DNA from: Thiobacillus denitrificans | GTDB lineage: Bacteria; Pseudomonadota; Gammaproteobacteria; Burkholderiales; Thiobacillaceae | Length of the DNA stretch: 64,000 nucleotides | Assembly: GCA_020723405.1 (NCBI GenBank) | Contig: DYIY01000003.1 | Span: 124,001-188,000, forward strand | Reading direction: 5' to 3' | Shown here: in pieces, positions 23,314 to 31,433 of the stretch | How positions within the stretch are numbered: the first letter of the stretch is position 1 | How the letters are laid out: each line of letters starts with the position of its first letter | Notes under the pieces: model-generated | What the model saw: only the letters and a program-made list of their open reading frames with translations | What the model was told of the DNA's origin: nothing | Database searches by the model: none | Program-made: the position numbers and the translations under genes

Positions 23314-25929
23314 TTATGCCTGATGCTCGCGCCGGCATAGCCCGCGCATCTCGCACCAGGAACAGGTCTGGGGCGCCCCCTGGGCGGGCAGGGGGGCCCC
23401 GGCGGCCAGGCCGGCCAGGGTGGCGGCCAGCCGCTCGCCTTCCAGGGCGGCCTGGGCCGCCAGGTCGCCCTTGCGGGCCAGGATGTCCACCTTGTCGTCG
23501 TCCACGCCGACGAAGCCCGCCTCCGCCGCGCCGGTGAGCCAGGCGTAGGTGGTGAGTTGCGCGTCCTCGGCGGCCTCGTCCAGTTTCTTGCGCAGGACGT
23601 CCCGGGCCTGGGTCTTGTAGTCCAACACGGCCACGGCGCCGGCCTTGTCTTCCAGCCGGTCCACCCGGCCGTGGAGCAGGGTGCTGCCGCCGGGCCACGT
23701 CACCTCCCGTTCCACCCGCTGTTCGCCGGCCTGGAAGGCGTAGCCGGCCTGCTCCCGGGCCTGGGCCCAGTCCAGGTAGGCACCGTGCTGACGCTCCCAG
23801 CGCAGCCGCCAGGCCAGGGCCAGGTAGCTGGCGGCTTCGGCGGGGGCGAAGGCCTCCCGGGTGAGTGCGGCGAGTTGGGTTTCAAGGACGCTGCGGTCAT
23901 GGTCGGCCAGCCGGGGGTAGGCTGCATGGAATCCGGCCAGGACCTGGTGGACCAGGCTGCCGTAGTCGGCCTTCTCCATTTCCTCCTGGACTTCGTCCCG
24001 CTCGTTGAGGCCCAGTTGATGGCGGGCGTGGAACTGGTAGGGACAGGCCACCAGGCTTTGCCAGGCGCTGACACTGAGGCGGGCCGGCACGCCCGGGGAA
24101 GCGGGGGATGGGACAAGGGCGGGGGGTGTTTCGTCCGCGCCGGGGCCATCGGCGGGGGGCGCCGGCTCCAGCCAGGGGCGACCCCAGGCGGCTTGATGGA
24201 AAGCGTCCAGGTGGACCAGCCAGGGGGACAGGGGCACGGGTTCGCCCTGTTCCTCGGCCTGCCAGACGAATACCGCCCGGGGGGCCCGGGCCAGCAGGTC
24301 CATCAGGTCGGCGCGCAGTTCCTCTTCCTTCTCCAGGGCGCCGGGCAGGCCCAGTTGCCGGCGGGCCGCATCGTTGAACAGGCCGCTGGCCGGGGGGGGG
24401 GGCAGGTGGGCAGCCCCGGCCCCCAGCAGGATCACCCCTTCCACCTCCCGGGTGTGGGCGGCGCCAAGGTGGGTGAGGCGCAGGGGGCTCAGGACCGTGT
24501 CGTCCAGGAAGGTGCCTTCCTCCAGATGCAAAAACAGCCAGCGCCGCCAGTCGGCCAGGGGGTAGCGGGCCCGGTGGCCGGCGCTTTCCGCGGCCAGCCG
24601 GTCCAGCAGGCTCAACAGTTGCCGGCCCACCGGGTCGGCCCCCAGAGCGGGACGGATGGCCAGGGCCCCCAGCAGGTCCAGCCAGCGGCGGGTCCACTCC
24701 TGGAGACTGCGCCTGCCCCGGGCGAAGCCGGTCAGGGCACCGTCGAGCCGGGCCAGCACGGCTTTTGCCGCGTCCAGGCCCAGTTGCCGGGCCAGGGCCT
24801 GGTGGCCGGCCAGCCCGTCGGGGGCACCGTGGCGGCGGAAGGCTTCGTCCAGTTGCTGGGCGGCCCGCTCCCGCAGGCCCGGATCGTCGGCCAGCACGTA
24901 GGGCGAGTGGAGGAAATCCAGCAGGTCCCGGAACCAGGCGTTGCCCGTCACCAGGCGCAGGGTGGCGTCCAGGGCATGGCTGGCAGAGGCGGTGGTGAAG
25001 GCCCAGCCGGTCTCGTCCTGGGCCAGGATGCCGCGCCGTTCCAGGAGAGCCCGCAGGCGCCGGGCCATGAGCCGGTCCAGGGCCACCAGCAGGATCTGCC
25101 GGCGGCCTTCCGCCAACCAGTCCAGCAGCACGGCTTCGGCGCTCCGGGCGGCGGCCTCCAGGCCCGGGGCGGCCAGCAAACGGACGCTGCCATGCAACAG
25201 GCTGCGCGGAAATCCCGCTGCCAGGCTGTGGGCCCGTTGGGCCAGGGGCGGCCCAGCGGCCGGGACGCGCCAGGCTGCCTGTAAGAGGGCCAGGCGGTCC
25301 GGGTGGTCCGGCGGCGTGGGCAGTTCGATGACCGGGGCCCGCTGCCGCCAGGTCGCCAGAAAATCCTCTTCCACGCCGCTGCGTACCACCCGGCCCAACA
25401 CGTAGAGGGGACAGTCGGCCCGGCCGGCCCGGCGCAGCAGACGTCGCCCGCGCAGGGCGGCGGCGCCGGGCCGGCCGCTGCGGGCCAGGGCCTTCCACAC
25501 TTCCCGGGCCAGGCCGGCTTCCAGATCCAGGTAGCGGTTGCGGCCCCGGGCCAGATGTTCCCAAACGGTCTCGGGCGCCCCCCGAGCATCCAGTTCGTCC
25601 AGCAGGCCCAGCAGATCCCGGGCCGCTTCCCAGAGGGTCCCGTCCGGCACCTGGCCACTCTTTTCCAGGAAGTCCCGCAAGACGGCCAGACGGACGCTGT
25701 CCGGCTCTGCGTCCTCGTCGGGCCGAGCGTCTTCCGCCGCCAGATCGGCCAGGGTCAGGATGACCGGCGGACGCAGGTGGCGCCCCGGCAGGGTGGCCAC
25801 CAGGGCCTGGCGAAAAGCCTGGGCGGCGTGATGATGGGGGGCGACCAGCAGGGTGTCGGAGTAATCCGGCGTGCGTTCGCCTTCGCGTTCCAGGAAGGCC
25901 AGGGCAGCAGGCAGCAGGGTGGCAGGCAT
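23314..25929 (-). CDS. AddB-like PD-(D/E)XK nuclease with Fe-S cysteines
   Basis: 871 residues. The C-terminal ~230 residues form a RecB-type nuclease: GSLVHQVLAGFH, then LDYKTQ carrying the catalytic D and K. The cysteines C629 (VACPYQF) and the terminal CSWCEMRGLC match the iron-sulfur staple of AddB nucleases. The rest resembles an inactivated helicase, with no Walker A lysine motif. It is expected to work with an AddA helicase-nuclease in double-strand-break end processing, but no addA adjoins it here. The ATG at 25929 is used; the same frame is open upstream across the terminator to a GTG at 26010. Its leader contains a promoter and a terminator. Confidence 0.82.
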   Translation of the reverse strand: MPATLLPAALAFLEREGERTPDYSDTLLVAPHHHAAQAFRQALVATLPGRHLRPPVILTLADLAAEDARPDEDAEPDSVRLAVLRDFLEKSGQVPDGTLWEAARDLLGLLDELDARGAPETVWEHLARGRNRYLDLEAGLAREVWKALARSGRPGAAALRGRRLLRRAGRADCPLYVLGRVVRSGVEEDFLATWRQRAPVIELPTPPDHPDRLALLQAAWRVPAAGPPLAQRAHSLAAGFPRSLLHGSVRLLAAPGLEAAARSAEAVLLDWLAEGRRQILLVALDRLMARRLRALLERRGILAQDETGWAFTTASASHALDATLRLVTGNAWFRDLLDFLHSPYVLADDPGLRERAAQQLDEAFRRHGAPDGLAGHQALARQLGLDAAKAVLARLDGALTGFARGRRSLQEWTRRWLDLLGALAIRPALGADPVGRQLLSLLDRLAAESAGHRARYPLADWRRWLFLHLEEGTFLDDTVLSPLRLTHLGAAHTREVEGVILLGAGAAHLPPPPASGLFNDAARRQLGLPGALEKEEELRADLMDLLARAPRAVFVWQAEEQGEPVPLSPWLVHLDAFHQAAWGRPWLEPAPPADGPGADETPPALVPSPASPGVPARLSVSAWQSLVACPYQFHARHQLGLNERDEVQEEMEKADYGSLVHQVLAGFHAAYPRLADHDRSVLETQLAALTREAFAPAEAASYLALAWRLRWERQHGAYLDWAQAREQAGYAFQAGEQRVEREVTWPGGSTLLHGRVDRLEDKAGAVAVLDYKTQARDVLRKKLDEAAEDAQLTTYAWLTGAAEAGFVGVDDDKVDILARKGDLAAQAALEGERLAATLAGLAAGAPLPAQGAPQTCSWCEMRGLCRREHQA

Positions 25930-25955
25930 GGGCCCATTGTCCCGGCCGGCCGCAC

Positions 25956-25984
25956 AAAAAAAAACCCCGGTTTGTGACCGGGGT
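25956..25984 (-). terminator. strong Rho-independent terminator
   Basis: On the minus strand an 8-bp stem, ACCCCGGT/ACCGGGGT, with a 5-nt loop is followed by nine T residues. This is an excellent intrinsic terminator for leftward transcription. It lies 26 nt before the ATG of the AddB-like gene, so it ends a short upstream transcript or attenuates that gene. Confidence 0.9.
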
Positions 25985-26078
25985 GAAGAGAGGAGGAGGA
26001 TGTCAGCCACACCGGTGCAGGTGCGCGGCCAACAATCCCGACCCGAATACCCGATGGCTCAGGGCACCCGGGGGGGAT

Positions 26079-26117
26079 TCAACACGAAACGCATCGCCAC
26101 TCGCGCGGTAAACGCAT
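26079..26117 (-). CDS. 12-codon leaderless frame in the small-RNA unit
   Basis: ATG at 26117 opens MRLPREWRCVSC and stops. The predicted transcription start is only 2-4 nt upstream, so translation would be leaderless. The two Cys, one Trp and three Arg in 12 codons recall leader peptides that sense translation, but this is inference from composition and position. The frame may equally be fortuitous. Confidence 0.3.
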   Translation of the reverse strand: MRLPREWRCVSC

Positions 26118-26127
26118 TTCAGATACG

Positions 26128-26156
26128 AATATATGAAATAGAAGCCCTTGTGTCAA
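26128..26156 (-). promoter_or_regulatory. near-consensus sigma-70 promoter
   Basis: Minus strand: TTGACA (26156-26151), a 17-nt spacer, then TATATT (26133-26128), in an AT-rich island unlike the surrounding GC-rich sequence. The predicted start is near 26121. It is the strongest promoter I can read in the window. Confidence 0.8.
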
Positions 26157-26232
26157 ACTGGTTTTTATATGGTGGTAACCTGCCTTACCCCCATGGGGTG
26201 AATCCCCTTCCGACACCTTGCCCAACGTAGTT

Positions 26233-27345
26233 GTGAGCCATTTCCATCCGCCCCTGGTCGATCGCCTGCTGGCGCAGCGGCCGCATATTCCAGTCACCAG
26301 CGTTCTGGTCGTCGCCAACCTGCTGGTGTTTGCCGCCATGGTCGTCCAGGGGGCCGGCCTGTGGCATACAGCCAACGGCATCCAGTTGGCCTGGGGGGCT
26401 AACTTCAGTCCGGCCACCCAGGATGGCCAGTGGTGGCGGCTGGGCAGCGCCATGTTCCTGCACTTCGGCCTGCTCCATCTGGCGCTGAACATGCTCTCCC
26501 TGTGGGATGGAGGCCGGCTGGTGGAGCGCATGTACGGCCCGGGCCGGTTCCTGGTGCTCTATGGGGCCAGTGGCCTGGCCGGCAATCTGGCCTCCCTGGT
26601 GGCCCACGGCAACCAGGCGGTGTCCGGCGGGGCGTCCGGTGCCATCTTCGGCGTCTATGGCGCCCTGCTGAGCTACCTCTGGCTGGAGCGGCATGGCTTG
26701 GACCGGGCCGAGTTCCGCGGGCTGTTCTGGGGGGCGGCGGCGTTCACGGGGTTGGCCATCGGCTTTGGTCTGCTGGTGACCGGCATCGACAATGCTGCCC
26801 ACGGCGGCGGTCTGCTGGCCGGCGTGCTTGCGGGTCTGGCCCTGGGCCGCCCGTTCCATCGGGTGCCCAGCGCCCGGCGCATCGCCCAGGGCTTGGCGGG
26901 GCTGACCCTGATCGGACTGGTGGGGGCGCTGTTGCTCAACCTGCCGGCGCCCCGCTACCGCTGGAGCGAGGAACAGCGGGCCCAGCGGGAGATCCTGGCT
27001 TTCCTGGATGAGGACGCCCGCATCAGTGCCCAGTGGGGCAGCCTGCTGGATCAGGCCCGGCGCCGGGAGGAAACCTTCGACGCTCTGGCCGGGCGCATCG
27101 AGGATCAGGTGGCGGCACCCTACGAGGACAGCTTCGAACAACTGGCCAATCTCCAGGTCAGCCGGGCCGTTCCTTCCGCCCCGGCCCTCATGGCCCTGCG
27201 GGAGTACGCCCGCATCCGTCGGGACGCCTCCCGGGAACTGGTGGAGGGGCTGCGTACCCAGGACATGGACAAGGTCAGGGAATCCCTGGAGTCGGCCCGC
27301 CGGGCGGTCGGCCGGGTTCAGGAGGGGCATCAGGAACGGCCTTGA
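26233..27345 (+). CDS. rhomboid-family intramembrane serine protease
   Basis: Polytopic membrane protease with the Ser-His dyad: S135 in GGASGAIFG and H190 in DNAAHGGGLLAG (numbered from the GTG at 26233). Conserved LHLALNMLSL and repeated glycine-rich helices fit the rhomboid core (about 20-240). A soluble C-terminal extension of about 120 residues is charged and helical (EEQRAQREILAFLDE). There is no ATG start: GTG at 26233 or TTG at 26218 are the options. The gene is divergent from the small-RNA unit. The substrate is unknown. Confidence 0.87.
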   Translation: MSHFHPPLVDRLLAQRPHIPVTSVLVVANLLVFAAMVVQGAGLWHTANGIQLAWGANFSPATQDGQWWRLGSAMFLHFGLLHLALNMLSLWDGGRLVERMYGPGRFLVLYGASGLAGNLASLVAHGNQAVSGGASGAIFGVYGALLSYLWLERHGLDRAEFRGLFWGAAAFTGLAIGFGLLVTGIDNAAHGGGLLAGVLAGLALGRPFHRVPSARRIAQGLAGLTLIGLVGALLLNLPAPRYRWSEEQRAQREILAFLDEDARISAQWGSLLDQARRREETFDALAGRIEDQVAAPYEDSFEQLANLQVSRAVPSAPALMALREYARIRRDASRELVEGLRTQDMDKVRESLESARRAVGRVQEGHQERP

Positions 27346-27378
27346 GGGGCTGCCGGACGGGCTCTATATAAATACGGT

Positions 27379-27407
27379 TTGACAGATATATATGGCAGTT
27401 GTTAGGC
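27379..27407 (+). promoter_or_regulatory. probable arsR promoter
   Basis: TTGACA (27379-27384), a 17-nt spacer and a weak TTAGGC (27402-27407) precede arsR by 39 bp in an AT-rich patch that includes ATATATAT. ArsR repressors bind such AT-rich regions to autoregulate their operons. The -35 is consensus and the -10 is poor, so the exact assignment is tentative. Confidence 0.5.
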
Positions 27408-27446
27408 TGTTCGCATTGATGCTACTTGCGTTTATGCGTATTGATT

Positions 27447-27764
27447 ATGGACGAACAAGCCTTCTTTGATGCGTTGGCCGACCCCATCCGGCGGCGTATC
27501 CTGGCCCTGCTGCTGACCCACGACGAACGATGCGTCTGTGATCTGAACGCCAGTCTGGCGGAACCCCAGCCCAAGGTGTCCCGGCATCTGGGTGTGCTGC
27601 GGGAAGGGGGGCTGGTGCTGACCCGCCGGGAAGGTGTGTGGATGCACTACCGCCTGCATCCGGGCCTGCCCGCCTGGGCTCTGCGGGTGCTCTGGCACAT
27701 GCGCGAGGGCCTGCCCGCCGAAGCCGCCGTCGCCAAGCAGGATTGCCCGGTGTGCGCCGCCTGA
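27447..27764 (+). CDS. arsR: arsenic-responsive repressor ArsR
   Basis: Winged-helix repressor of 105 residues that releases DNA on binding As(III). The N-terminus MDEQAFFDALADPIRRRIL is typical; the metalloid site ERCVCDL carries the paired cysteines; the recognition helix region is EPQPKVSRHLGVLREGGLV. A further C-terminal DCPVCAA could take part in binding. The ATG at 27447 was chosen over an upstream start because ArsR homology begins there. It is the first gene of the arsenic operon, and the next gene begins 33 bp later. Confidence 0.95.
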   Translation: MDEQAFFDALADPIRRRILALLLTHDERCVCDLNASLAEPQPKVSRHLGVLREGGLVLTRREGVWMHYRLHPGLPAWALRVLWHMREGLPAEAAVAKQDCPVCAA

Positions 27765-27797
27765 TAACCCCATGACCTGACTGTTCCGGATATCTCC

Positions 27798-28202
27798 ATG
27801 AAAACCGTACTGATCCTTTGCACCGGCAATTCCTGTCGTTCCCAGATGGCCGAAGTGCTGGTCAACCACGATCTGGTTGGCCAGGTGCGTGCCCTGTCTG
27901 CCGGCACCCGTCCCCAGCCCAAGGTGGCGGATGGCGCCATCGCCGCCCTGAAGGAGATGGGCCTGGAGACGGATGGCCTGTATCCCAAGGACGTGGACGC
28001 GGTCATGAATGAAGCCATCGATCTGGTGGTGACCGTGTGCGACAACGCCAAGGAAACCTGCCCGATCTTTCCCCGGCCGGTGAAATCCATCCATCTGCCC
28101 TTCCACGATCCCCACGGCGAACCCCTGGAAAGCTTCCTGAAGGTGCGCGACGACATCCGTGCCCGGCTGGTGCCCGCAGTGCGCGAGCAGTTGGGGCTTT
28201 GA
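27798..28202 (+). CDS. arsC: arsenate reductase ArsC, thioredoxin-coupled LMW-phosphatase type
   Basis: Reduces As(V) to As(III) in the cytoplasm. The 134 residues carry the LMW-phosphatase loop CTGNSCRS (CX5R) at the N-terminus and the redox cysteine pair in VVTVCDNAKETCP, as in thioredoxin-linked ArsC. A DPHGEPLESF loop follows, with a C-terminal helix. It is the second gene of the operon and is followed after 30 bp by another reductase of the same fold. Confidence 0.92.
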   Translation: MKTVLILCTGNSCRSQMAEVLVNHDLVGQVRALSAGTRPQPKVADGAIAALKEMGLETDGLYPKDVDAVMNEAIDLVVTVCDNAKETCPIFPRPVKSIHLPFHDPHGEPLESFLKVRDDIRARLVPAVREQLGL

Positions 28203-28232
28203 GCCACACCTGTCCTCCCGGAGGAGAAGATC

Positions 28233-28739
28233 ATGGCCGACACCATTCTGAACGTGCTGTTCCTGTGTACCGGCAATTCCGCCCGCTCCATCCTGGCGGA
28301 ATCCCTGCTCAACAGCATGGCGGTGGGCAAGGAGCGCTTCCGGGCCTACAGTGCGGGCAGCCATCCCGCCGGCCGGGTCAACCCCTTCGCCATCGAGTTG
28401 CTGGAGAAGAACCATCTGCCCACCGAGGGACTGCGCAGCAAGTCCTGGGACGAGTTCGCCCAGCCCGGTGCGCCGGAATTGCACTTCGTTTTCACAGTGT
28501 GCGACAACGCCGCCGGGGAGGTCTGCCCGGCCTGGCCCGGCCAGCCCATGACCGCCCATTGGGGGGTGCCCGATCCGGCCGCCGTGGAAGGGGATGACGA
28601 GCGCAAACGCAAGGCCTTCTTCCAGGCCTTCCGCCAGTTGCAGAACCGCATTTCCCTGTTTGCCAACCTGCCCCTGGATAAGCTGGACCGCATCAAGCTG
28701 GAGAAAGCCCTGCGGGATATCGGCAGCACCACGGTCTGA
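28233..28739 (+). CDS. arsC2: second arsenate reductase of the LMW-phosphatase fold
   Basis: 168 residues with phosphatase loop CTGNSARSILAE, the resolving region FTVCDNAAGEVCP and the PMTAHWGVPDPA motif typical of a distinct ArsC subgroup that is often glutathione/glutaredoxin-linked. The upstream GGAGGAG is a strong ribosome site. Two reductases in tandem suggest different electron donors (thioredoxin and glutaredoxin), which is inference. It ends 12 bp before the aquaporin gene. Confidence 0.9.
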   Translation: MADTILNVLFLCTGNSARSILAESLLNSMAVGKERFRAYSAGSHPAGRVNPFAIELLEKNHLPTEGLRSKSWDEFAQPGAPELHFVFTVCDNAAGEVCPAWPGQPMTAHWGVPDPAAVEGDDERKRKAFFQAFRQLQNRISLFANLPLDKLDRIKLEKALRDIGSTTV

Positions 28740-28751
28740 ACCGGATCCATC

Positions 28752-29459
28752 ATGTCCCTATCCAGAAGACTCGTCGCCGAAGCCCTGGGCACCGCCTTCC
28801 TGCTGGCGGTGGTGGTGGGCTCGGGCATCATGGCCGAGCGTCTGGCGGGGGGCAACGTGGCCATCGCCCTGCTGGCCAACACCCTGGCTACCGGTGCCGG
28901 CCTGGTGGCCCTGATCCTCACCTTCGGGCCCATTTCCGGGGCCCACTTCAACCCGGCGGTGACCCTGGCCGATGCCTGGCAGGGGGGGCTGCCCTGGCGG
29001 ATCGTCCCGGGCTACCTGGCTGCCCAGGTGGCGGGCGCCTTCGCCGGCGTGGCGGCGGCTCATCTCATGTTCGATGAGGCCCTGTTCTTCGCCTCCCAGC
29101 ACGTGCGCAGCGGCCCCAGCCAGTGGTGGAGCGAATTCGTCGCCACCTTCGGCCTGCTGGCGGTGATCTGGGGCTGCGTGCGCCAGCGGCCCGGGGCGGT
29201 GCCCTTCGCCGTGGGGGCCTACATCACCGCCGCCTACTGGTTCACCGCATCCACCTCCTTTGCCAACCCGGCGGTGACCCTGGCCCGGGCGGCCTCGGAT
29301 ACCTTCGCCGGCATCCGGCCGGTGGATGCCCCGGCCTTCATCGTCGCCCAGTTGCTGGGGGCTCTGGCCGCCACGGCCCTGTTCCGCTGGTTGATCCCTA
29401 CCTTGCCGGAGCGGGCCGGGGATGTGATCCTGCCCCATTCCGCATCCGATCCGGACTGA
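28752..29459 (+). CDS. aqpS: MIP-family aquaglyceroporin, probable arsenite channel (AqpS-like)
   Basis: 235-residue six-helix channel with both pore loops: HFNPAVTLA and FANPAVTLAR. In Sinorhizobium an AqpS inside an ars operon lets As(III), formed by ArsC, flow out down its gradient. The same arrangement is seen here: arsR-arsC-arsC-aqp and no ArsB or Acr3 pump. The family is certain; the substrate is inferred from the operon. It is tightly packed (4 bp to the next start). Confidence 0.88.
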   Translation: MSLSRRLVAEALGTAFLLAVVVGSGIMAERLAGGNVAIALLANTLATGAGLVALILTFGPISGAHFNPAVTLADAWQGGLPWRIVPGYLAAQVAGAFAGVAAAHLMFDEALFFASQHVRSGPSQWWSEFVATFGLLAVIWGCVRQRPGAVPFAVGAYITAAYWFTASTSFANPAVTLARAASDTFAGIRPVDAPAFIVAQLLGALAATALFRWLIPTLPERAGDVILPHSASDPD

Positions 29460-29463
29460 GGCC

Positions 29464-30396
29464 ATGTTGAACCTTTTCTTCCGGGGCCTGTTGGCCTTGC
29501 TTCTGCTTTTCTTCGTTCATGCCACCCGGGCGGATTTCCAGCCCGTGGCCCTGCCGGTGGTCGAACAGGTTCATGCCATCATCGGTCCCCTGGGCCAACG
29601 CAATGCCGATAACGACGGACTCAACGCCAACTTCGGCTTCATCGTCACCGGCCAGGGGGTCATCCTCATCGACTCCGGGGCCAGCAAGCTGGGCGCCGAG
29701 AAGCTGGAAAAGGCCATCGCCCGGGTCACTGACCAGCCCGTGCGCTGGGTGATCAATACCGGCAGCCAGGACCACCGCTGGCTGGGCAACGCCCATTTCG
29801 CGGCCAAGGGCGCCCAGGTCTTCGCCCTGAAACGCACCGCCGCCACCCAGGCGGAGTTTTCCGGCCAGCACATGCAGATGCTGGCCGGCTTCCTCGGCCC
29901 CCGCCTGGAGGGCACCCGGCCCCAGCCCGCCACCAGCCTGCTGGAGGGGGACGAGGCCACCCTGGAACTGGGGGGCGAAACCCTGGTTTTGCGCTACACC
30001 GATGCCCACTTCCCGGGGGATGCCTGGGTCTGGCTGCCCAGGCGCAACGTCGTCCTTACCGGGGACCTGGTCTATGTGGACCGGATCCTGGGGGTGCTGC
30101 CCTGGTCCAGCGTGAAGAAGGGCCAGAAGGCCTTCCGTGCCCTTGAAGCCTTGAACCCGCAACACATCGTCCCCGGCCACGGCGGCGTCTGCGACCTGGC
30201 CAAGGCCAAGCGGGATTCCGGCGACTATGGGGACTTCCTGGCCGACGTCATCGGCAAGGCGGCCCAGGACATGGAGGCCCTGGACGCCACCCTGGACAAG
30301 TACGCCGACCAGCCCCGCTTCAAGCATCTGCACAACTTCACGGACCTGCACCGGGCCAACATGAATCGGGCCTTCGTGGAGTTCGAGGCCAACTGA
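29464..30396 (+). CDS. exported MBL-fold protein with an altered metal site
   Basis: 310 residues with a signal peptide (about 1-23, LLLFFVHATRA) and a metallo-beta-lactamase fold. The usual HxHxDH motif is replaced by T99-G-S101-Q-D103-H104, losing two histidine ligands of the first metal, while DAHFPGDAW, LTGDLVYVD and VPGHGGVCD keep later ligands. It may bind one metal or act differently from standard hydrolases. It belongs to the arsenic operon by position: 4 bp after the channel gene, with its stop overlapping the permease start (TGATG). Its role there is unknown. Confidence 0.78.
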   Translation: MLNLFFRGLLALLLLFFVHATRADFQPVALPVVEQVHAIIGPLGQRNADNDGLNANFGFIVTGQGVILIDSGASKLGAEKLEKAIARVTDQPVRWVINTGSQDHRWLGNAHFAAKGAQVFALKRTAATQAEFSGQHMQMLAGFLGPRLEGTRPQPATSLLEGDEATLELGGETLVLRYTDAHFPGDAWVWLPRRNVVLTGDLVYVDRILGVLPWSSVKKGQKAFRALEALNPQHIVPGHGGVCDLAKAKRDSGDYGDFLADVIGKAAQDMEALDATLDKYADQPRFKHLHNFTDLHRANMNRAFVEFEAN

Positions 30397-31433
30397 TGTC
30401 CGCCGTCGCCGGTCGTACCAGCCTGGGCCCCTGGGTCGGGCTCGTTCTGGGCGTGCTGCTTTGGCTGGGGGCCTATGCCAACCTGACGGCCTTCGCCGAC
30501 GCCGGCCTGGCCCTGCTGGGCCTGGAGCGCAGCAGCCATCTGGGCGAGGCCATCCACTTCTTCCTCTACGACACCCCCAAGGTGCTGCTCCTGCTGGTGG
30601 GCGTGGTGTTCCTCATGGGGGTGGTGCACAGCTTCATCTCCCCGGAGCGGACCCGGGCCTGGCTGGCCGGCAAGCCTCTGGGCCTGGGCAACGTCATGGC
30701 CGCCAGCCTGGGGGTCGTCACCCCCTTCTGTTCCTGTTCGGCGGTGCCCCTGTTCATCGGCTTCCTGTCCGCCGGGGTGCCCCTGGGGGTGACCTTCTCC
30801 TTCCTGATCTCGGCGCCCATGGTCAACGAGGTGGCCCTGGCCCTGCTGTTCGGCCTGTTCGGCTGGCAGGTGGCCGCCCTCTACCTGGGCCTGGGGCTGG
30901 CCGTGGCCATCGTCGCCGGTCTGGTCATCGGCAAGCTGGGGATGGAACACCACCTGGAAGACTGGGTGCGGGCCATCCGTGTGGGCGCGCCGCCGGTCCT
31001 GGGCGACGGACCGCCCACCTGGCCGAAACGCCTGCGGGCCGGGGTGGACCACGTCCGGGAGATCGTCGGCCGGGTCTGGCCCTGGCTGCTGGCCGGCATC
31101 GCCGTGGGCGCCGGCATCCACGGCTTCGTGCCCGAGGATTTCATGGCCGCCTTCATGGGCAAGGATCAATGGTGGGGCGTGCCGGCGGCGGTGGCCCTGG
31201 GGGTGCCCATGTACAGCAATGCCGCCGGCATCCTGCCGGTCATCGAGGCCCTGCTGGGCAAGGGCGCCGCCCTGGGCACGGCCCTGGCTTTCATGATGAG
31301 CGTCATCGCCCTGTCCCTGCCGGAGATGATCATCCTGCGCAAGGTGCTCAAACCCCGTCTCATCGCCGTGTTCGCCGCCGTGGTGGCCTGCGGCATCATG
31401 CTGGTGGGTTTCGTCTTCAACGCCGTCCTGTGA
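30396..31433 (+). CDS. arsP: ArsP-type permease (DUF318 family)
   Basis: 345 residues with about eight to ten membrane segments in two halves. The first half carries TPFCSCSAVPLF, the cysteine motif of the ArsP/DUF318 permeases, and the second a matching GVPMYSNAAGILPV. ArsP members export trivalent organoarsenicals such as methylarsenite, which fits the arsM gene downstream. Related members are annotated as Cu/Zn exporters, so substrate assignment rests on context. The start overlaps the MBL gene stop by one base. Confidence 0.82.
   Translation: MSAVAGRTSLGPWVGLVLGVLLWLGAYANLTAFADAGLALLGLERSSHLGEAIHFFLYDTPKVLLLLVGVVFLMGVVHSFISPERTRAWLAGKPLGLGNVMAASLGVVTPFCSCSAVPLFIGFLSAGVPLGVTFSFLISAPMVNEVALALLFGLFGWQVAALYLGLGLAVAIVAGLVIGKLGMEHHLEDWVRAIRVGAPPVLGDGPPTWPKRLRAGVDHVREIVGRVWPWLLAGIAVGAGIHGFVPEDFMAAFMGKDQWWGVPAAVALGVPMYSNAAGILPVIEALLGKGAALGTALAFMMSVIALSLPEMIILRKVLKPRLIAVFAAVVACGIMLVGFVFNAVL

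Follow-up and report, generated by a model that had tools for sequence, protein, structure and literature searches.

A candidate trans-acting small RNA gene with a Shine-Dalgarno-complementary tract, conserved among probable Thiobacillaceae

Background

Does a stretch of about 165 nucleotides without an ordinary gene, enclosed by a promoter and a terminator in Thiobacillus denitrificans, encode a regulatory RNA, and would such an RNA act on the gene behind it or on distant messages? The window analysed here is a stretch of 64,000 nucleotides (contig DYIY01000003.1, positions 124,001 to 188,000), in which the original prediction described an unannotated minus-strand transcription unit with a CCU-repeat tract able to pair with Shine-Dalgarno sequences. 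From sequence evidence, and with a probability of roughly 0.7, the locus encodes a small RNA that is conserved, non-coding and trans-acting and belongs to (probably) Thiobacillaceae. The evidence consists of its own sigma-70-type promoter and terminator, a common hairpin plan, a nearly invariant and largely single-stranded CUCCUCUCUU tract and persistence of the element where it is unlinked from its usual neighbour. Small RNAs of Thiobacillaceae are the subject of no study among the matches listed in the open-licence PMC literature; the locus would add a conserved small-RNA family without Rfam entry for a group of sulfur bacteria.

Promoter, terminator and layout of the locus

The near-consensus promoter of the original prediction is present on the minus strand, with a -35 hexamer TTGACA (26151..26156), a 17 bp spacer and a -10 hexamer TATATT (26128..26133). 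It matches the sigma-70 consensus at 11 of 12 hexamer positions and is the only sigma-70-like site in the 4.5 kb between 24000 and 28500, where shuffles give a mean of 0.3. The small RNA (about 165 nt, 25956..26121, minus strand) has a putative start near 26121, placed from the -10 position, and ends with the last T of the terminator run. Its minus-strand features are, in 5' to 3' order, hairpin 1 (26085..26121), with a loop length that varies between species, hairpin 2 (26034..26079), with GCCAUC at 26058-26053 in its apical loop region, and hairpin 3 of the UUGUUGGUCGCG / CGCGRCUGACA type (26002..26033), all three being predicted folds and the last also marked by pair changes on both sides. 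The CU-rich tract AUCCUCCUCCUCUCUUC, complementary to Shine-Dalgarno sequences, follows at 25985..26001 and adjoins the intrinsic terminator (25956..25984) directly on its 5' side, as had been claimed of a CCU tract, here ATCCTCCTCCTCTCTTC at 26001-25985. The terminator, like the promoter exact in the coordinates first given, has a stem at 25984-25964 of 8 pairs (6 G-C) and a 5-nt loop, followed by nine T (25964-25956) that are read directly. Four terminator-like sites occur in 24000-28500, this stem being the longest, and since shuffles already give a mean of 2.2, their count alone is weak evidence. Folded as 25957-26122, the RNA reaches -76.5 kcal/mol (z -4.38), and none of 200 dinucleotide shuffles folds as well.

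The statement that the stretch holds no ordinary gene is also right, although the nuclease gene behind it has a frame extendable to a GTG at 26010, within the RNA. In many relatives, however, the alignment of the nuclease begins at the residue of the ATG at 25929.

Conservation of promoter, tract and terminator

A first plain DNA search of 101 genomes (the genome of the window and 100 relatives) matched 32 of them; one match (G009) touches an RNA of Rfam family RF02278 and was not counted as the small RNA of the window. Of the 30 loci returned, 29 were aligned, with the exclusion of one (L023, genome G017) that has lost the promoter and the 5' half and has a changed tract. Alignment A1 comprises 24 loci; A1 to A3 are without L023, and only A4 includes it, together with two loci found by covariance model (L105, L106).

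The original prediction was to fall if close relatives failed to keep the promoter, the CCU tract and the terminator, and all three are conserved. The -35 box is exactly TTGACA in 25 of the 29 aligned loci and TTGAC plus any base in 29/29; the -10 box is exactly TACATT or TATATT in 27/29, and the spacer between them has 17 positions in 26 loci and 18 in three. These hexamers were chosen by best consensus match, but an unguided alignment (24 loci) brings them into register as well. The tract core CTCCTCTCTT is found in 29/29 aligned loci as well as in L105 and L106, and is absent from L023; GCCATC and a T run of at least 5 are each found in 26/29.

With gaps counted as mismatches, mean pairwise identity over 23 of the 29 aligned loci is 0.645 in the promoter segment (34 nt) and 0.617 in the RNA, where shuffling leaves 0.189. 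Over the 100 nt that precede the promoter it is 0.195, against 0.197 when these are shuffled once, and in the 60 nt downstream, often including the start of the nuclease gene, it is 0.307. As identity falls to the level of the shuffle upstream, the selected stretch appears to run from the -35 box to the terminator.

Two loci depart from this picture. At the excluded locus of G017 (L023 / L110), the end of another reading frame replaces the promoter and the RNA 5' half and the tract is changed, with terminator and nuclease gene remaining; it may be either a decaying copy or a 3'-UTR-derived form. At L106 (G016), hairpins 2 and 3 look rearranged, with promoter, tract and terminator retained.

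Secondary structure and covariation

Minimum-energy folds of the 29 members, computed one by one, give the same plan in most: a hairpin 1 of variable length, a hairpin 2 with GCCAUC near the tip, then hairpin 3, the CU tract, which is left mostly unpaired, and finally the terminator. L008, L014, L015 and L016 depart from this plan, hairpin 3 included. The CU tract is predicted to be largely unpaired in all 29 members (mean probability 0.89, range 0.68-0.99) and lies, on average, at the 99th percentile of unpairedness among the 15-nt windows of its own RNA, terminator tail excluded.

Hairpin 3 shows changes on both sides in 4/11 pairs of the plain MAFFT alignment (A3) and in 6/11 pairs of the model-fitted alignment (A4). 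For hairpin 3 and terminator together, 95.5% of cells are paired in the unguided alignment, with five pairs changed on both sides, and pairing drops to 34-51% when the partners are slid by 1-3 columns. The covariation score is reached by 0/500 shuffles and the number of pair types by 11/500, counts that are not probabilities because the aligned sequences are related. In the model-fitted alignment, which leans towards its own structure, all five measures lie above the shuffles and 13/28 pairs have changes on both sides; a slide of +3 columns still gives 11 such pairs against the 13 in register, so this count is a weak measure there.

Support for the other two hairpins is weaker than for hairpin 3. 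In the model-fitted alignment, hairpin 2 keeps its inner pairs poorly to moderately (77% of cells); hairpin 1 has similar arms in many relatives but is missing from the consensus fold of RNAalifold, which, on the unguided full-length alignment, comprises hairpin 3 and parts of hairpin 2 and of the terminator, with a covariation term of -1.93 kcal/mol. Since U-G and G-U pairs are frequent in hairpin 3 and would be mismatches in a plus-strand transcript, the RNA is the minus-strand one.

Distribution among genomes

A covariance model built on the 3' part of the RNA (123 positions) matches the window at 25955-26078 with 124.9 bits. In the search of related genomes that had been proposed as a check, it finds the RNA at 59-126 bits in 33 of the 117 family genomes, at 34 places and in 8/12 genera, the next score being 33.7 bits; two of these places (G101) sit at contig ends and could be a single one. 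In this search, genera g5, g6, g7 and g12 are without any genome at 59 bits or more. The small RNA is not universal in the family, as 84/117 genomes, some of them incomplete, are without a match of at least 59 bits. At E <= 0.001 the model reports 40/117 family genomes in 11/12 genera, of which only the 33 at 59 bits or more were counted. The weaker family matches (up to 34 bits), where inspected, are terminators (L109, L120), a CCU-rich stretch of other make (L107), apparent coding sequence (L108) and RF02278 RNAs (G024, G060).

Outside the family, 32 genomes among 399 of the order gave E <= 0.001, with 38 bits as the best score, in a search run with Infernal's stricter filters, by which weak true relatives could be lost. 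Thirteen of these extra-family loci (L082-L094) were inspected; by eye they have no promoter and no GCCATC before the tract, and they are taken as chance matches driven by the terminator.

The exact 21-nt tract occurs in 20 named stretches: Thiobacillus (3), Thiobacillaceae (2), Parasulfuritortus (2; Thiobacillaceae according to NCBI), Gallionellaceae (3, drawn from two MAGs), uncultured Burkholderiales (3), Hydrogenophilus (2), Hydrogenophilales (1), Betaproteobacteria (2) and less precise labels (2). The family that carries the small RNA is probably Thiobacillaceae, though some MAG labels disagree.

Neighbouring genes

In the window, the small RNA is followed on the same strand by a gene for an AddB-like PD-(D/E)XK nuclease of 871 aa (23314..25929, minus strand; PF12705, 112.4 bits), which starts 26 nt past the T run and has AddB as its best NCBIfam match (87.6 bits, under the cut-off of 486.5). 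On the other side lies a divergent gene of the rhomboid family (26218..27345, plus strand; PF01694, 111.3 bits). At 27 of 32 loci the nuclease gene stands behind the small RNA on the same strand, its first aligned residue coming 21-140 nt past the end of the RNA, and it is possibly fed by read-through from the small RNA.

In the remaining five loci (L016, L017, L019, L025 and L106), the nuclease gene does not adjoin the small RNA. Four of these retain promoter, tract and terminator; at L106, the more diverged fifth, the nuclease gene follows on the same strand after about 2.5 kb. The nuclease gene lies on another contig in G001 and G031, and it was not found anywhere in G010 and G025, which are 96% and 93% complete. 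In G031 (L016 / L111), the small RNA sits between the ferredoxin gene fdxA and a Grx4-type glutaredoxin gene and is convergent with fdxA on the opposite strand; as it faces the end of that gene, nothing follows immediately for which it could serve as a leader. In 11/32 loci a glutaredoxin gene lies divergent to the small RNA, which hints at the ancestral place of the RNA. In the inspected genomes of g5, g6 and g12, the nuclease gene is immediately preceded by a ferredoxin gene, and the RNA is absent between the two (8/8 loci, by eye). The independence of the small RNA from its neighbouring gene supports action in trans.

Linkage in 27/32 loci taken together with persistence where unlinked would also suit an RNA with both roles, i.e. 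a trans-acting small RNA derived from a 5' leader, with incomplete termination that also supplies transcription of the nuclease gene. We regard such a double role as possible, if tentatively so, the strong terminator with its 8-bp stem and nine T arguing for little read-through. It is unlikely that the element is chiefly a cis-acting leader, in which the promoter would drive the nuclease gene and the terminator would serve as an attenuator, with read-through setting nuclease expression. The same linkage is the best argument for a leader, and the mere 26 nt between RNA and nuclease gene in the window leave little room for a separate promoter; however, a position always upstream of the controlled gene is not what the five unlinked loci show, promoter, tract and terminator are kept in four of them, two nearly complete genomes yielded no nuclease gene, and an anti-terminator is not apparent in the minimum-energy folds.

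Proposed function

The preferred reading remains that of a small RNA acting in trans. Several features of the Hfq-dependent trans-acting class can be recognized from sequence: the RNA has its own promoter and a terminator with U run, it is retained where neighbours have changed, and the host encodes Hfq, here twice (G000:C32:100401-100586 and G000:C29:141251-141442; PF17209, 101.5 and 92.7 bits). The CU-rich tract is complementary to ribosome-binding sites of the GAGGAGG type, and resembles the 3' end of 16S rRNA. In anti-Shine-Dalgarno small RNAs of alphaproteobacteria (AbcR1/2, NfeR1), an unpaired anti-Shine-Dalgarno motif acts as seed; these RNAs belong to another class of bacteria than the host of the window RNA and are likened to it by description only.

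By analogy, the most likely role of the small RNA is to cover the ribosome-binding sites of a set of messages and thereby repress them. It would be transcribed from its own sigma-70-type promoter and bound by Hfq via the U-rich 3' end; the tract would then pair with purine-rich Shine-Dalgarno sequences of several mRNAs, and the pairing would block ribosome binding and lower translation. Such a mechanism has been reported for Bordetella S17 and proposed for Burkholderia ncS27/bdhR1. A second contact may be made by the conserved GCCAUC loop. The original interpretation as a candidate regulatory RNA with a CCU tract able to pair with Shine-Dalgarno sequences gains support from conservation, from the tract predicted to be unpaired in 29/29 members, from independence of neighbours and from the lack of any Rfam 15 family at cut-off.

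A more elaborate variant, which we consider quite unlikely, sees a two-handed translation blocker. The hairpin-2 loop GCCAU is complementary to AUGGC, i.e. a start codon with the first two bases of an alanine codon, and loop and tract would clamp the start codon and the ribosome-binding site of one message at once, the RNA coexisting with an RF02278 RNA as a second, lineage-specific competitor for similar sites.

Search for target genes

Sites complementary to the tract over 10 nt were searched in 50 genomes with the pattern AGAGAGGAGG-N4..11-ATG and a backward control. Seven such sites occur in 7/50 genomes (four for the control), distributed over 4/29 carriers and 3/21 genomes taken as non-carriers. 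Shorter sites of 8 nt (AGAGGAGG-N4..10-ATG) number 27 in seven carriers versus 21 for the control. Neither pattern search, in the 50 genomes or in the seven carriers, gives a clear enrichment of complementary start sites over the backward control.

Two genes carry GAGGAGGATGTC before the ATG, a PEP-CTERM protein gene of the genome of the window and a DUF2189 membrane protein gene of G029. Among DUF2189 orthologues, complementarity of at least 8 nt to the window tract is present in 8/15 carriers and 2/6 non-carriers, versus 2/48 heuristically called window genes; the orthologue of G030, with an aligned start in a broken frame, was dropped from this comparison, and weaker paralogues (L220-L227) were left out. 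A single matching member was the reason for picking this gene, its starts were called heuristically, and matches occur in non-carriers too, so DUF2189 is a lead, not evidence, and both genes are candidate targets in the sense of leads only.

Comparison with known small RNAs

The Rfam family RF02278 (Betaproteobacteria toxic small RNA) comprises ncS27, ncS03, ncS05 and ncS62 of Burkholderia cenocepacia, "double-hairpin RNAs" of which one is bdhR1. Like the window RNA, its members are short, end with a terminator hairpin and U run, and have an unpaired CU-rich anti-Shine-Dalgarno stretch; RF02278 has a CU-rich first hairpin, whereas the tract of the window RNA runs straight into the terminator. 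According to the available text of the reports (PMC5688073; PMC4603805), the CU-rich unpaired stretches of the Burkholderia double-hairpin RNAs are predicted to cover ribosome-binding sites, overexpression of ncS27 slows growth and ncS27 is processed to a shorter form; an excerpt of a further report (PMC7011215) adds toxic small RNAs from Herbaspirillum.

It is very unlikely that the window RNA is a divergent member of RF02278 and not a separate family. It scores 26.5 bits against that model and has a similar UGUCUCCUCC / UGACAUCCUCC motif and terminator, but this is under the gathering score of 50, as is the case in the six relatives scanned (24.4 and 24.7 bits in two, the other four not listed at E <= 0.5). 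The alignment to the RF02278 consensus leaves the first hairpin mostly unfilled, and the minimum-energy folds lack such a CU-rich hairpin before the terminator. Furthermore, the genome of the window encodes a true RF02278 RNA at another site (G000:C2:53949-54009, L158:1450-1510; 66.8 bits), and matches above cut-off occur in 69 of the 101 genomes searched, including 55 of the 61 family genomes among them, mostly one each. In the eight RF02278 loci inspected, a ATATTAGA-type stretch and a short stem precede, and no upstream likeness to the window promoter and hairpins 1-3 was seen. One genome thus holds two RNAs of different build, both ending in nearly the same Shine-Dalgarno-masking tract, which raises the question whether they have common targets, or different ones set by the architecture around the tract.

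In RF02866 (ncS16 of Burkholderia), a stem is followed by a single CU-rich stretch and then by a terminator, an order shared with hairpin 3, tract and terminator of the window RNA; its model of 83 positions is without a counterpart of hairpins 1 and 2. Scores stay below its cut-off of 48, with 23.1 bits for the window and 25.8-29.0 bits in three of six relatives, the others not being listed.

The nearest tested model for the window RNA is S17 of Bordetella pertussis. As far as the available text of its description goes (PMC11722255), S17 has a sigma-70-type promoter with 17-bp spacing, a precursor of about 190 nt with stem-loops, a C/U-rich unpaired region and a nine-T terminator, all of which, compared by description only, are likenesses to the window RNA in its promoter, stem-loops, unpaired region and terminator. 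The same text reports processing by RNase E, dependence on Hfq and direct repression of one gene by pairing in its 5' untranslated region, many more candidate genes matching near their ribosome-binding sites, and S17 not being similarly toxic in E. coli. Differences from the window RNA, in that portion of the report (PMC11722255), are the several pairing sites of S17S, the homology to RF02278 stated by its authors and the location beside coq7.

Taken with these systems, the window RNA looks like a new small-RNA family, which by analogy would work like known anti-Shine-Dalgarno RNAs. Neither the window, nor L105, L106 and L110, nor the six relatives scanned have a match to any Rfam 15 family at its gathering score. 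Sub-threshold Rfam matches in the window (Trp leader with 30.2 bits, the RF02278 and ncS16 matches given above, anti-hemB with 22.2 bits, and others) draw mainly on the terminator and the CU tract, some of them also on the preceding stem.

Coding potential and other features of the window

Of the 29 aligned members, 18 have an ATG at position 7 of the RNA and 11 do not. Frames from this ATG have 3 to 59 codons, two of them being open to the end, and by eye share neither length nor sequence, so the small RNA is taken as non-coding. A reading of the conserved element as short coding gene or protein-sequestering RNA, in place of a base-pairing regulator, is hardly plausible: the ATG in 18/29 members and the putative frame of 32 residues also given for Bordetella S17 in the available part of PMC11722255 speak for it, and the range of frame lengths, the 11 members without ATG and peptides that look unlike one another speak against a coding gene.

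Searches for tRNA and tmRNA genes and for plasmid sequences gave no match in the window. At 27426-31433, the window contains what we take, from the translations, to be an arsenic-type cluster of an ArsR-like regulator, two arsenate-reductase-like proteins, an aquaporin-like protein and a permease-like protein.
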